Assembly: GCF_001659685.2 (NCBI RefSeq)
Contig: NZ_LXYE02000009.1
Coordinates: 1-64,000, forward strand
Length of the DNA: 64,000 nt
From: Labilibacter marinus
Lineage (GTDB): Bacteria; Bacteroidota; Bacteroidia; Bacteroidales; Marinilabiliaceae
Direction: 5' to 3'
In this document: positions 8,441 through 42,758 of the stretch, piece after piece
How the letters are laid out: every line of letters starts with the position of its first letter
Numbering within the stretch: the first letter of the stretch is position 1
The notes under the pieces: generated by a model
The model's database searches: none
Seen by the model: the letters and a program-made list of their open reading frames with translations, nothing else
What the model was told of the DNA's origin: nothing
Translations under genes and position numbers: made by a program

Positions 8441-9910
8441 ATGAAAAAAAACAAAATTGTTCTCTGTTTAGCGTTTGCCTTATGCTTAAGTGCCTTTTCG
8501 CAGCTAATGGCAAAAGGTAAGTCCAAGCAGCCCAATATTATCTTTGTCATGGTGGACGACTGTAGCGCTGTGGAATTTTCGAGTTATGCTACTAGTAAGC
8601 ATCCTGCAGGAAATCGAACGCCAGTTATTGATGGTTTGGCCAAGGAGGGATTGCGTTTTACCACCTGCTGGGCTACACCTTTATGCATGCCAACACGGGC
8701 TTTGTTAATGTCGGGTAAGTATGGATGTAAAACAGGAGTGTTTGGAAATAAATTAAATAAGCACGATGATAACTTTGCCAAACAACATATTCCCATTTCA
8801 AAGAAGTTGCAGGAGAATGGTTACGAAACAGCTATTTCCGGTAAATGGCATATTCCTGGTTATGCCGAAGAAGAGCATTCTGGATGGGATGAATATTCCT
8901 TACTTGGTGGATATATGAAACCTTATAAAAAGGATGTGGTTTGGGATGGACGTTGGTTTTCGTGGAAAAAAGCCGCCGATACATTTTTAGATACGGCTGT
9001 TATTGGTAAAAACAAACAATTATATCCTGCACTATATTGGCATGGAGCAGTTTATCAGAATGGTCAATTATTACCAAGCAATAAAGATACCTATGCACCT
9101 GATTTAAACCAGCAGTTCGCACTTGAATTTATTAAAAAGGATAGAGACAAACCTTTCTTTTTATATTATCCAATGGTATTGCCGCACGATCCATGGTTAC
9201 CTACTCCTGCTAATAATGATGCCAATAAAAAATCGAAACCAGGTTTCAATAGTTTGGTTGATCGTTTAGAGTTTTATATGGATGAATTAATCCATACTGT
9301 AAAGGAGCAAGGACTTTATGAAAATACCATTATCTTTTTTACCGCGGACAATGCTACGTTGGCGAACGGCAAAGGTAGTTGTTCTGAACTAGGTGTTCGC
9401 GTTCCTTTGGTAGTAGCAGGTGGTCCGCTTAAGAAACATGGTACATCAGATGTTCTGATAGATTTTTCTGATATGTATCCAACCATCTTAGATTTGGCAG
9501 GAATAAGTGAAGTAAAGGATAATGCATTGGATGGATTAAGTTTTGAACCACTTTTAAAAGGCAAGAAACACGTCGGAAAAGAATATATTTTCAGTTACCT
9601 GGATATGGAAAGAACAGTTCGTTCAAAAGAGTATATGATGGATGGTAGTGGTGGAATATGGAAATGTGCCAGTGATGGAAATATTCTGGATTATATAAAA
9701 ATGCCAGAGGATAAAAAAACAAAAGAAATACGCGCTAACTTTCTAAAGCAAATAGAAGCATATACTATTCCAACCACTGAACTTTTTAGCAAAGAAAGAA
9801 TAGAGAAAGCTTCTAGAAATTACCCATGGCCAAGTTATCATCCTTCCATGGTAAATGCCATTAAGCAACAAGATAATTGGATGAATAATAAACGAAGAAT
9901 GAAAGAATAA
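8441..9910 (+). CDS. S1-family sulfatase, Cys-type with CMPTR motif
   Basis: A 489-residue secreted type I sulfatase with signal peptide (ending LMAKG, about residue 25). The N-terminal metal-binding strand is NIIFVMVDDCS. The formylglycine motif is C82-M-P-T-R86; most family members have C-x-P-S-R, so Thr replaces the usual Ser. KWHIPGYAEEEH carries the conserved Lys-x-His region, and FFTADNATLANGKG is the second metal site, with DNA where many sulfatases have DNG. Cys82 must be matured by a formylglycine-generating enzyme that is not in this window. It probably desulfates galactan oligosaccharides in the periplasm; position specificity is unknown. Confidence 0.9.
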   Translation: MKKNKIVLCLAFALCLSAFSQLMAKGKSKQPNIIFVMVDDCSAVEFSSYATSKHPAGNRTPVIDGLAKEGLRFTTCWATPLCMPTRALLMSGKYGCKTGVFGNKLNKHDDNFAKQHIPISKKLQENGYETAISGKWHIPGYAEEEHSGWDEYSLLGGYMKPYKKDVVWDGRWFSWKKAADTFLDTAVIGKNKQLYPALYWHGAVYQNGQLLPSNKDTYAPDLNQQFALEFIKKDRDKPFFLYYPMVLPHDPWLPTPANNDANKKSKPGFNSLVDRLEFYMDELIHTVKEQGLYENTIIFFTADNATLANGKGSCSELGVRVPLVVAGGPLKKHGTSDVLIDFSDMYPTILDLAGISEVKDNALDGLSFEPLLKGKKHVGKEYIFSYLDMERTVRSKEYMMDGSGGIWKCASDGNILDYIKMPEDKKTKEIRANFLKQIEAYTIPTTELFSKERIEKASRNYPWPSYHPSMVNAIKQQDNWMNNKRRMKE

Positions 9911-40036: not shown

Positions 40037-40101
40037 TTTCACTATTCTTAAAGGGAGCACACCATAAAGTCGTATTTTTTTATTTTTAACATTAACTTAA
40101 T

Positions 40102-40117
40102 GACGTATTTATACGTC
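40102..40117 (+). promoter_or_regulatory. ArsR operator 1
   Basis: GACGTA-TTTA-TACGTC is a perfect inverted repeat, 57 bp before arsR. A second, near-identical copy lies 28 bp downstream. Confidence 0.7.
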
Positions 40118-40129
40118 GCATTAAATTAT

Positions 40130-40145
40130 GACGTATATTTGCGTC
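40130..40145 (+). promoter_or_regulatory. ArsR operator 2 overlapping a -7 promoter box
   Basis: GACGTATATTTGCGTC repeats operator 1 with small changes and contains TATATTTG (40134-40141), a full match to the TAnnTTTG -7 consensus. A repressor bound here would block the promoter of arsR, which starts 14 bp downstream. Confidence 0.7.
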
Positions 40146-40158
40146 GTAATAATAAGAT

Positions 40159-40491
40159 ATGGTACAATCAAAGTCAGAATTATTTGAAAAGAGTTTAAGT
40201 GAGCAAGCTAATTTATTTAAGGCGCTTTCTCATCCTGCCCGTTTACAAATACTCAAATTTATAGCAGAAGCAAAGTCTTGCATAACAGGAGATATTTCAG
40301 ATGAATTGCCCTTAAGCAGAACAACAGTAAATCAGCATATCAAAGAACTAAAAGCAGTAGGTTTAATTCAAGGCGAAATTGAGGGAGTTAAAACAAAGTA
40401 CTGTTTAAATGTATCGAAAATAGAAGAGCTTAAACGTAGCTCTCTCGATTTTTTTGATGCTTTAAATACAGAAACATACACATGTAAATAA
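40159..40491 (+). CDS. arsR: ArsR-family winged-helix repressor
   Basis: A 110-residue regulator. LFKALSHPARLQILKFIAEAKSCITGDISDELPLSRTTVNQHIKELKAVGLIQGEIEG is a typical ArsR/SmtB winged-helix domain. Residues ending in CITGD hold a Cys in the position of the usual helix metal site, and the C-terminus YTCK adds another Cys, so the inducer site differs from the ELCVCDL motif of classic ArsR. Tandem operators in its own promoter suggest autorepression. arsC and acr3 follow, so it probably controls arsenic resistance. Confidence 0.87.
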   Translation: MVQSKSELFEKSLSEQANLFKALSHPARLQILKFIAEAKSCITGDISDELPLSRTTVNQHIKELKAVGLIQGEIEGVKTKYCLNVSKIEELKRSSLDFFDALNTETYTCK

Positions 40492-40575
40492 TGGGGTTCG
40501 GTAGACTTTTTAGGTATGATGTAAGGATGCAGTATTAAATGTGTTTCTCTCGAAGGAGGGTTGTTTTTCCACCTT

Positions 40576-40687
40576 TGATAAAATGCGTTAAGAAAATCAA
40601 AGAGTGTAACGTAAAAAATCAAAGCTGTTTGAGCGAAGCGAGTTCTTTTATTTTAGTGAAACGATTTGATTTTTAGCAATTTTATCA
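40576..40687. repeat. Large imperfect hairpin with conserved apical loop, copy 1
   Basis: Between arsR and arsC. Nested pairs: TGATAAAAT/ATTTTATCA (outer), AAAATCAAA/TTTGATTTT (middle), AAAATCAAAG/CTTTTATTTT (inner, one mismatch). They surround a 20-nt loop at 40625-40644 reading CTGTTTGAGCG, AA, then GCGAGTT. Copy 2 has a near-identical loop but unrelated arms. Confidence 0.75.
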
Positions 40688-40766
40688 GTAGTGGCGGCAT
40701 TTTTTGTTTCCGTTTTTGCTGCTGTAGGTAAAAATGAAAAGCCCGTCGGCTTGAGACAAAAGGAAA
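40688..40766. repeat. Shared module following hairpin copy 1
   Basis: GTGGCGGC...TTTCCGTTTTT...AAAAATGAAAAGCCCGTCGGCTTGAGACAAAAG can be aligned with the module after copy 2. The internal stem is weaker here. The gap between arsR and arsC (340 bp) is largely made of copy 1 and this module. Confidence 0.6.
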
Positions 40767-40831
40767 TATTTCAAATGAAAATAGTTTTACTGGACAATAG
40801 TGAAATGTAAATAACAATAAATTATAAAAAT

Positions 40832-41257
40832 ATGAAGGTATTAATTTTATGTACAGGTAATAGTTGCCGTAGCCAAATGGCGCACGGTTTTTTACAATCT
40901 TTCGACAAAAACATCACTGTTGAATCAGCAGGGACAGAAGCCTCTGGTAAATTAAACCCAGGAGCTGTAAAAGCAATGGCCGAAATAGGTTTAGATATCA
41001 GCGGACATTCATCAGATTCCGTTAGCAAATTTTTAAATGACGAGTGGGATTATGTAATTACCGTTTGCGGAGGAGCCAACGAAGCATGTCCTGCATTTAC
41101 AGGGAAAGTAAAAAAACGTTTACACATTGGTTTCGATGATCCTTCACATGCCGAGGGAACAGAAGAATTTATCCGGAGCGAATTTATTAGAGTAAGAGAT
41201 GAAATTAAAGAAGGATTCTACAAGTTATACACCGAGGATATTAAACCTCAGTTATAA
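40832..41257 (+). CDS. arsC: Arsenate reductase, LMW-PTP/thioredoxin-coupled type
   Basis: A 141-residue ArsC. The low-molecular-weight phosphatase loop CTGNSCRSQMAHG gives nucleophile C7 and R13. The second redox pair is C79 and C86 (TVCGGANEACPAF), as in thioredoxin-dependent ArsC of the Staphylococcus pI258 type. DDPSHAEGTEEF contains the DP that supplies the general acid. It reduces arsenate to arsenite in the cytosol for export by Acr3. It is flanked on both sides by the hairpin elements. Confidence 0.92.
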   Translation: MKVLILCTGNSCRSQMAHGFLQSFDKNITVESAGTEASGKLNPGAVKAMAEIGLDISGHSSDSVSKFLNDEWDYVITVCGGANEACPAFTGKVKKRLHIGFDDPSHAEGTEEFIRSEFIRVRDEIKEGFYKLYTEDIKPQL

Positions 41258-41327
41258 TTCAGGGAATTTGCCTTTAAACAAAATAAAGTTCTAGGTCGAG
41301 CTTTCGACATCAGCAACGCAGCTTGGG

Positions 41328-41413
41328 ACCCACATTTCTTGATGTTGAGAAGACAGAAAGCTGTTTGAGCGTTAGCGAGTTCTTTCTGTCTCAAAAGCAA
41401 GAAAATAGTGGGT
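41328..41413. repeat. Large imperfect hairpin with conserved apical loop, copy 2
   Basis: Between arsC and acr3. Pairs: ACCCAC/GTGGGT (outer), TTTCTTG/CAAGAAA (middle), AGACAGAAAG/CTTTCTGTCT (inner, perfect). They surround a 21-nt loop at 41361-41381 reading CTGTTTGAGCG, TTA, then GCGAGTT. Arms are unlike those of copy 1. Confidence 0.78.
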
Positions 41414-41424
41414 AAGCGAGTGTT

Positions 41425-41500
41425 GCAGTCGGCGGACTTTTTGTCCACTTTTTTGACTGAAGAAAAAAGTGGAAGCCTTGCGGCTTGAGCAAAAGAAAAG
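41425..41500. repeat. Shared module following hairpin copy 2
   Basis: GTCGGCGGACTTTTTG...GGAAGCC..GCGGCTTGAGCAAAAG aligns with the module after copy 1. It holds a perfect 11-bp stem, TCCACTTTTTT (41444-41454) with AAAAAAGTGGA (41463-41473). Confidence 0.65.
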
Positions 41501-41668
41501 TATTGTTTTATAGATATGATGTTTTTATTGTTTTTGAAAGCAATTTTCCTGAGTTGAAGGAAGAAAGTAAAAGCCCGCCGGCTAAAGGTAAATAGCTTGT
41601 TGAAAATGAGATATTTGTTTTAATCTAACTGGGGTTCGATCGGATAATCGTCATTTATTATAACAGCG

Positions 41669-41726: not shown

Positions 41727-42758
41727 ATGGCAGAAAGTAAAGCAGAGATAGGTTTCTTTGAAAAGTATTTATCGCTTTGGGTAGCTCTATGTATTGGAGT
41801 AGGTATATTAATTGGAAATTTTGCAGGCGAAAGTGTGCAGGTTTTAAGTTCCTTGGAAGTATTTAAAGTAAATATTCCAGTGGCCATTTTAGTTTGGCTG
41901 ATGATATACCCAATGATGCTTCAAATTGATTTTTCGAGCATTAAAAATGTAGGTAAGAACCCGAAAGGACTCATGCTAACATTGGTAGTTAACTGGTTAA
42001 TTAAGCCCTTTACAATGGCATTTTTTGCGTGGATTTTCTTCACTAAAATATATGCCGCTTATATTTCTCCTGAATTAGCAGGAGAGTACATTGCCGGAGC
42101 TATTTTGCTGGGCGCAGCACCTTGTACAGCTATGGTTTTTGTATGGAGTTACTTAACCAAAGGCGATCCTAATTATACCTTGGTTCAGGTAGCTGTTAAC
42201 GATTTAATTATTTTGGTGGCATTTGTTCCTATTGTAGGCCTTTTGTTAGGCGTAACTGATGTGCAAGTGCCATACGATACCTTAGTAGCCAGTGTATTTA
42301 TCTTTGTGGTAATACCTTTATTGGCAGGATATATAACCAATAAAGCACTCGTTAAAAACAAAGGGAAGGAATGGTTCACGAATAGTTTTTTACCCAAGTT
42401 TAAACCCGTTTCTATTATAGCACTTCTTTTAACTTTAGTGCTGTTATTTGCTTTTCAGGGTAACATCATTACCGAAAATCCACTCATTATAGTATTGGTT
42501 GCAGTGCCTTTAATTATTCAAACCTATTTTATCTTTTTTATCGCTTGGTTTGGTGGTAAAAAGTTGAAGTTACCACATGCGGTATGTTCTCCTGCAGCCA
42601 TGATTGGAGCTAGTAACTTTTTCGAGTTAGCTGTTGCTGTAGCAATTGCTTTATTTGGCTTACAATCGCCCGCTGCATTAGTAACCGTAGTAGGTGTTTT
42701 GGTAGAAGTTCCAGTCATGCTTTCTTTAGTGGCTATTGCCAATAAAAATAAGTTTTAG
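41727..42758 (+). CDS. acr3: Acr3-family arsenite efflux permease
   Basis: A 343-residue membrane protein with about 10 helices. [19 protein letters not shown] and [33 protein letters not shown] are Acr3 signatures; the Cys in AAPCTAMVF is essential for arsenite transport in studied members. [18 protein letters not shown] is the second conserved membrane motif. It exports arsenite made by ArsC. It lies 469 bp after arsC, a gap filled with repeats, so it may have its own promoter. A terminator follows. Confidence 0.93.

Follow-up and report, generated by a model that had tools for sequence, protein, structure and literature searches.

Two hairpins with one apical loop flank arsC

The arsC gene of Labilibacter marinus lies between two large hairpins with different stems and the same apical loop, and this arrangement raises the question of what the hairpins are and why the same tip should be kept on both. 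The window analysed is the whole stretch of 64,000 nucleotides (positions 1 to 64,000 of contig NZ_LXYE02000009.1); the features of the locus, with the two copies termed A and B, are listed in Table 1. The reading that we favour, with moderate confidence, is that each hairpin forms the core of a MITE, that the two MITEs inserted separately, and that they share a structured apex, which would be read as folded single-stranded DNA.

The loop pattern CTGTTTGAGCG-N-AGCGAGTT was found twice in the window, both times on the + strand, and in none of 100 dinucleotide shuffles, which confirms the identical loops on either side of arsC reported in the preliminary description. Against shuffled sequence, RNA folding gave z values of -2.5 (+ strand) and -2.7 (- strand) for the region of A, and of -3.8 and -4.7, respectively, for that of B. 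Both hairpins were real, although larger than first delimited (Table 1). Their stems, described as unrelated, do differ between A and B, but each copy belongs to a subfamily within which the stem is conserved. The mirror repeat GAGCG..GCGAG that had been pointed out is present in the window loop, whereas homologues read GACCG..GGGAG, GAACG..GTGAG or GAGTG..ACGAG; as these keep the pairing but not the mirror, the latter is a by-product.

Table 1. Features of the ars locus and of elements A and B in the window.
Feature	Position	Strand	Remarks
arsR-type regulator, upstream neighbour	40159..40491	+	NF033788, 59 bits (cutoff 55)
Left copy of 10-bp direct repeat ATGTAAATAA, probable target duplication	40482..40491	.	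overlaps arsR stop codon
Element A, assigned to the MITEs of the CATTGGTGTCCGGT-end family, with first hairpin	40489..40804	+	boundaries +/- 2 bp
Left terminal inverted repeat of A, degenerate	40489..40505	+	11/17 match
H1 of A, long hairpin (~126 nt)	40569..40694	+	approximate extent; proximal stem pairing preserved in homologues
Apex of copy A, CTGTTTGAGCGAAGCGAGTT (GA..GA around GC-GAA-GC)	40625..40644	+
H2 of A	40707..40739	+	sequence; similar position in other copies
H3 of A, AGCCCGTCGGCT	40740..40751	+	sequence
Right terminal inverted repeat of A	40786..40802	-	16/17 match
Right copy of direct repeat ATGTAAATAA	40805..40814	.
arsC-like reductase (LMWPc), between A and B	40832..41257	+	PF01451, 67 bits (cutoff 23)
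Element B, MITE-like, ends CAGGGAATTTGCC...GCAATTTTCCTG	41260..41551	+	3/19 mismatches each end
H1 of B, long hairpin (~135 nt), different stem	41301..41435	+	approximate extent
Apex of copy B, CTGTTTGAGCGTTAGCGAGTT (GC-GTTA-GC tetraloop variant)	41361..41381	+
H2 of B, CCACTTTTTTGACTGAAGAAAAAAGTGG	41445..41472	+	sequence
H3 of B, AAGCCTTGCGGCTT	41473..41486	+	sequence
ACR3 arsenite efflux transporter	41727..42758	+	TIGR00832, 403 bits (cutoff 283)

The arsC-like reductase also reached 130 bits with TIGR02691, below the cutoff of 174 for that model. Upstream of arsR, at 40100-40150, the words GACGTAT, ATACGTC and GCGTCGT are repeated and are perhaps a candidate ArsR operator.

Element A and its IS4-family relatives

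Elements A and B are each about 0.3 kb long, hold no ORF of 80 aa entirely within them, and are dispersed repeats, with 24 BLAST matches in their own genome, counting the query and fragments. A-type copies terminate in CATTGGTGTCCGGT and ACCGGACAATAGTG, which form inverted repeats next to 9-bp target duplications. Among 14 of them that were compared, the duplication was exact in L334, L335 and L336, matched at 8 of 9 positions in L316a and L317, and was not clear in the other nine; the best-kept ends had 0/0 (L335) and 1/2 (L316a) mismatches. In the window copy, the left inverted repeat is weak when taken alone, the best match in shuffled sequence having 6 mismatches at the 5% level, and the direct repeat lies 2-3 bp away from where the canonical ends would place it.

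A blind scan for inverted repeats accompanied by a 9-bp duplication was positive at 13 of 248 copies, with a single case in the control, and 9 of these 13 have CATTGG-type ends. The remaining 235 copies lacked this combination in the scan, so that the MITE reading applies mainly to the A family of Bacteroidota.

The end pattern of this family was present in 14 of 41 genomes, L. marinus included, and relatives from the same family or order yielded three full-length IS (1389-1404 bp) with A-type ends. Their proteins match the IS4-family model NF033592 (199-222 bits, cutoff 115) and PF01609/PF14294, and exact 9-bp duplications surround two of the three. An IS4 transposase was detected at E<=1e-40 in 10 of the 41 genomes, in some of them broken. 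The L. marinus genome had no match at this threshold, so that mobilisation of A would have been past or in trans, and its copies orphans as far as the assembly goes. In a 1-mismatch search of this genome by the ends, no two inverted ends were seen at the spacing that a full-length IS would require, in a noisy assay in which the reversed control gave more matches (58) than the pattern (32).

The proposal that A is a non-autonomous mobile palindrome was supported by its inverted repeats, the duplications of its family, the full-length IS4-family relatives and the empty sites described below. At the level of sequence, a MITE origin of family A and a target duplication of about 9-10 bp in it are demonstrated; the duplication of the window copy and the movement of the family by an IS4-type enzyme are well-supported predictions. 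In the available part of its description, the IS4Sa subgroup has CA ends and 8-10 bp repeats (PMC2266710). Element A resembles IS4-family MITEs in its CA ends, 9-bp duplications and full-length 1.4-kb IS4-family IS sharing its terminal repeats, and differs in its interior, where a compound hairpin module carries an apex that is found across phyla; the comparison with IS4Sa is one of descriptions.

Element B and the empty sites of relatives

The mismatches at the ends of B (Table 1) compare with a median of 9 and a minimum of 6 for the best matches in shuffled sequence. Duplications were seen at the B copies L341 (10/10) and L325 (9/10), whereas most of the others among the 17 B copies compared had none. 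For B, the idea of a non-autonomous mobile palindrome draws on the inverted repeats and the empty sites; a clear target duplication was not seen in the window copy, whose flanks share only AGTT. Element B is immediately followed, at 41556-41583, by one half of a further H2/H3-like module, which may mean that B inserted into or beside an older copy.

At the position of A, relative G007 reads TATAAATGTAAATAG followed by arsC, the sequence at the site being TATAAATGTAAATAGAAATGAAG, without the element. No A-like match was found in the arsR-arsC interval of seven of eight same-genus genomes (all except G006). The gap between arsC and ACR3 is <=80 bp in six of the eight; in G004 it is occupied by about 1 kb of other sequence, and in G006 the locus ended too early for the gap to be seen. 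The ars operon offers a natural case of occupied and empty sites within one genus. Upstream of arsC, the operons of G008 (L217) and G004 (L222) carry other repeat-like sequence, so this site may collect repeats.

Structure of the apex

Covariation was followed in 22 related copies from loci fetched by element similarity and not by the loop. TG..TGA and GAGTT were imposed at collection, so that the invariance of these letters in the set is by construction; a chance match at window position 9245 was dropped, and copies with a tetraloop or a 1-bp stem lie outside the set. The inner 2 bp of the apex were paired in 22 of 22 copies, with GC in 10, CG in 8, AT in 3 and GT in 1 at the outer pair, and CG in 20 and TA in 2 at the inner one. 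The triloop was GNA in 20 copies and AAA in the other two. In the tip and proximal stem together, 54 double-change cells were counted versus 17.4 in shuffles, a signal that was gone in slid controls. A loss of pairing among homologues, which had been raised as evidence to look for against the hairpins, was not what was found, as stem pairing was kept in 97.5% of 242 cells.

In a second assay, the hairpins were located only by a flanking stem and a downstream marker, with no letter of the apex imposed. Under this rule, 14 of 41 sources yielded no apex; the 38 rows obtained included 8 opposite-strand readings of hairpins already listed, leaving 30 distinct ones. TGT..GAGTT was present in 28 of the 30 and TGTTTGA in 25. 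In further variants of the apex, the loop is GTTA, GATA or TTTA, or the stem is reduced to one pair; at 10 of the 40 loci retrieved, no loop was recognised within 4 changes.

Together, the covariation and this second assay define the apex as tandem GA opposite GA, followed by 2 bp of stem and, in most copies, a GNA triloop, all on the + strand; the complementary strand would bear TC and TNC instead. Covariation demonstrates the pairing, and the facing GA steps would adopt sheared G.A geometry. With DNA folding parameters, which may not model GNA or G.A contacts, the apex of copy A was not favoured, and folding of the isolated tip as DNA was uninformative.

Variation of the stems under the apex

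Across 171 distinct copies, the 5' arms share a median ungapped identity of 28%, and each arm pairs with its own partner at a median of -48 kcal/mol, versus -21 kcal/mol when arms are swapped between copies. Own arms were below -18 kcal/mol in 168 of the 171 copies versus 119 with swapped arms, which indicates that long arms pair somewhat through composition alone. At least 8 contiguous pairs adjoin the loop in 54 of 122 copies from the genome_contigs collection, versus 0.8% of swapped arms. Fewer than 6 do so in 45 of the 122, because the stem is interrupted or begins further out. The arms of L060 and L092 hardly pair, and 19 of 37 distinct copies from virus contigs have no strong stem (weaker than -15 kcal/mol). 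Read as sequence comparisons, these data show a covarying, conserved apex on free stems.

A module of about 55 bp, ATTGnAGCGAAGCGGAAATCATGAAC...GTGAACTA, was also noticed within the arms of H1 (L325, about 505-560; L351; L157) or H2 (L338, L339, L346, L328), inserted mostly at AGA|AAG, and is thus a small element that occupies a constant position within the arms of hairpins.

Distribution of the apex

The loop is not confined to the two places flanking arsC, a restriction that had been named as fatal to the idea of a recognised loop: eight exact copies are present in the L. marinus genome, and many other taxa carry it, usually at the end of a long hairpin with a taxon-specific stem. It was found in 21 of 61 genomes searched, L. 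marinus included, with none matching the reversed pattern. A scan of genome_contigs with TGTTTGAGCGNAGCGAGTT returned at least 116 stretches, and the titles of the 80 listed name Bacteroidota, Pseudomonadota, Bacillota, Desulfobacterota-type, Nitrospirota, Nitrospinota, Patescibacteria, Gastranaerophilales and Aminicenantes, a count of nine phyla that is our grouping of record titles and includes many MAGs, in which contamination is possible.

The motif is still rare, being present in 9 of 249 Pseudomonadota genomes, one of which (the centre genome G064) was picked for having it. Among 247 Bacteroidota genomes, a relaxed pattern was positive in 24 and its reversed control in 15, so only the six genomes with a GC-GNA-GC core, L. 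marinus included, were used.

The presence of this tip on otherwise unrelated hairpins of many distant bacteria suggests that something reads it. Tip covariation and cross-phylum occurrence likewise support the selection on structure plus a recognised loop that had been proposed. Bacterial palindromic repeats are usually classed by stem or foot sequence; here, the sole constant is a structured tip common to several phyla and element types. No earlier description of the apex was found in full-text searches of the literature, including through GAGCGAAGCGAG, LFERSEF and GCGNAGC, and among the matches listed for GTTTGAGCG none was on repeats, by title. An all-versus-all comparison of 1117 mechanical ORFs (loci L015 onward) gave no recurrent mobilising family travelling with the hairpins, the widest cluster (13 loci) consisting of ABC-type ATPases by eye. 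No factor that reads the tip was found in the analysis.

Copies in head-to-head pairs and in attC sites

In Variovorax G064, 10 of 13 copies form five head-to-head pairs 254-267 bp apart, and similar pairs in Haemophilus and in genome G108 are 196-225 bp apart. In G340, an attC array includes copy L196 as one of its sites; an integron integrase (476 bits, cutoff 265) lies 34 kb away. Among the attC-like sites of this array, picked by a simple end-and-pairing filter, at least three more have GCGAAGC tips, with other tips at most sites. Genome G337 has a copy in attC-like sequence, 1.5 Mb from an integrase. In the accessible part of PMC2727003, a GAA triplet is described at the attC tip; it mattered for one attC in vitro, and a change of the VCR tip had minor effects in vivo.

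The tip hairpins resemble attC sites, as described in that part of PMC2727003, in being long imperfect hairpins with free stems, some with a GAA tip on the recombining strand. They differ in that the L. marinus genome has no integron integrase over the cutoff (best TIGR02249 match 122 bits, cutoff 265), and no attC R or L boxes were seen by eye in the window hairpins.

Proposed mechanism and alternatives

In the favoured reading of A and B as MITE cores, A, with its IS4-family-type ends, would have inserted at the end of arsR, duplicating about 9-10 bp of target, and B, with other ends, would have inserted separately after arsC. Both carry one type of module, a long H1 with a freely varying stem followed by the small H2 and H3. 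H1 is capped on the + strand by the conserved apex, made up of an asymmetric internal loop TGTTT/GTT, GA/GA, the 2-bp stem that covaries and, in most copies, a GNA triloop. DDE transposases, as deduced from the full-length relatives, would act on the ends of the elements, and the apex would be retained for some other step. Our inference is that reading of the apex takes place on folded single-stranded DNA, since the apex sits on stems of unrelated origin, among them those of attC sites, where the motif is on the strand known to recombine in folded form. The tip provides a concrete ligand, a 19-nt hairpin cap usable as bait.

More tentatively, TGTTTGA-NN-GNA-NN-GAGTT could be a single-stranded DNA apex read by a conserved factor on MITEs, paired repeats and attC sites alike, with tips shared or exchanged among them, an extension that we consider improbable as it stands. 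If true, it would mean that attC sites and dispersed palindromes share or exchange tips, and the link would bear on the origin of attC sites.

The hairpins might instead act as RNA, as transcript ends, stability elements or mRNA hairpins whose apex is bound by a conserved RNA-binding protein. The apex could fold as RNA, and the 111 copies placed between ORFs (not all independent) comprise 49 sense and 23 antisense copies among the 72 between same-direction genes, 29 at convergent and 10 at divergent sites; sense is favoured at about p 0.003, by a normal approximation on non-independent copies. Against an RNA role, about a third of the 72 are antisense, any transcript of a head-to-head pair contains one antisense copy, and the apex is also found on attC stems; the pairs and the attC occurrence favour a role as DNA. 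Eighteen copies lie inside mechanical ORFs >250 aa, which, like the sense bias, counts against the favoured reading. Neither the window nor eight motif loci matched an Rfam family at gathering score. The protein-bound RNA hairpin or regulatory element that had been offered as a possibility was accordingly not demonstrated, and we regard an RNA role as unlikely.

A quite unlikely alternative is that no protein reads the apex, and that a stable, nuclease-resistant mini-hairpin shields long palindromes from hairpin-cleaving nucleases or nucleates their extrusion. The GCGNAGC core, which corresponds to a DNA mini-hairpin of unusual stability, would account for stems of any origin, but the conservation of TGT and GTT outside it (28 of 30 hairpins) is left unexplained.

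Very doubtful is a REP/BIME-type repeat whose mobilising enzyme would be a Y1 (RAYT) transposase that recognises the apex hairpin. The head-to-head pairs of Haemophilus and Variovorax, 196-267 bp apart, do resemble BIMEs, and Y1 genes occur in 28 of 37 motif-positive genomes, with one each in the Variovorax, Ralstonia, Extensimonas and Xenophilus genomes. 'Atypical secondary structures' are reported for RAYT subclass 2.6 genes of Bacteroidetes in the part of PMC6006769 available. However, Y1_Tnp is similarly common in general (176 of 247 Bacteroidota versus 5 of the 6 motif-positive ones), G583 has 14 copies and no Y1 gene, and a GA..GNA..GA hairpin lies near only 2 of 36 Y1 loci (about 1.5 kb on each side). 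One is L187 (Clostridium sp. KNHs205; about 1050 and 1501-1623), where an exact motif hairpin is found ~0.4 kb from a Y1_Tnp fragment that is weak, below cutoff and has two stops. In the other, L176 (Variovorax), a weaker hairpin with 4 motif changes is ~1.3 kb from the Y1 gene. The filters used detected no tip hairpin near the remaining 34 loci, and in none of the 36 was the gene flanked on both sides. RAYT transposases were rejected as the explanation of the tip on the basis of the Y1 background frequency, G583 and the 36 loci.

Apart from any transposase, the hairpins resemble the GTAG and CGTC families of REP/BIME, as the accessible part of PMC3733652 describes them, in being extragenic palindromes that form head-to-head pairs and are commoner between same-direction and convergent genes. 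REP hairpins are 20-40 bp long versus >100 nt here, and carry a foot tag, whereas the conservation here is at the apex; nor was a RAYT association found for the tip hairpins. By inspection, GTAG is absent from the + strand foot of the window H1 hairpins. The Haemophilus tip copies may be likened, by description only, to the Haemophilus intergenic dyad sequences, which the available part of PMC4144887 presents as intergenic dyad repeats thought relevant to gene-locus mobility.

Other contexts of the tip hairpins

The 14 similar tip hairpins of G583 (L383-L386; C2 299-333 kb and 373-387 kb; C3 707-724 kb) include 10 in the same orientation, and this genome has no Y1 gene and no integron integrase that reaches the cutoff. 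The hairpins of L384 lie interspersed among ORFs that by eye are toxin-antitoxin-like and ATPase-like. In Variovorax (L191, L204, L207) and in G583 (L384), an extra small hairpin with a GAGCGAAGCAAA or GAGCGAAGCGAT tip and GGCC or CCAC stems was observed upstream of H1.

Two phage-like contexts were noticed by eye. In L297 (6973-6991) and similar filamentous-phage-like contigs, the motif has little stem and lies downstream of a zot-like ORF. In L260 (2215-2233), it is antisense inside a phage-replication-protein-like ORF, seemingly as an eroded hairpin. Finally, the Haemophilus and Rodentibacter copies (L088, 2830-3160; L053; L061) have nearby sequence like AAGTGCGGT, the DNA-uptake core.
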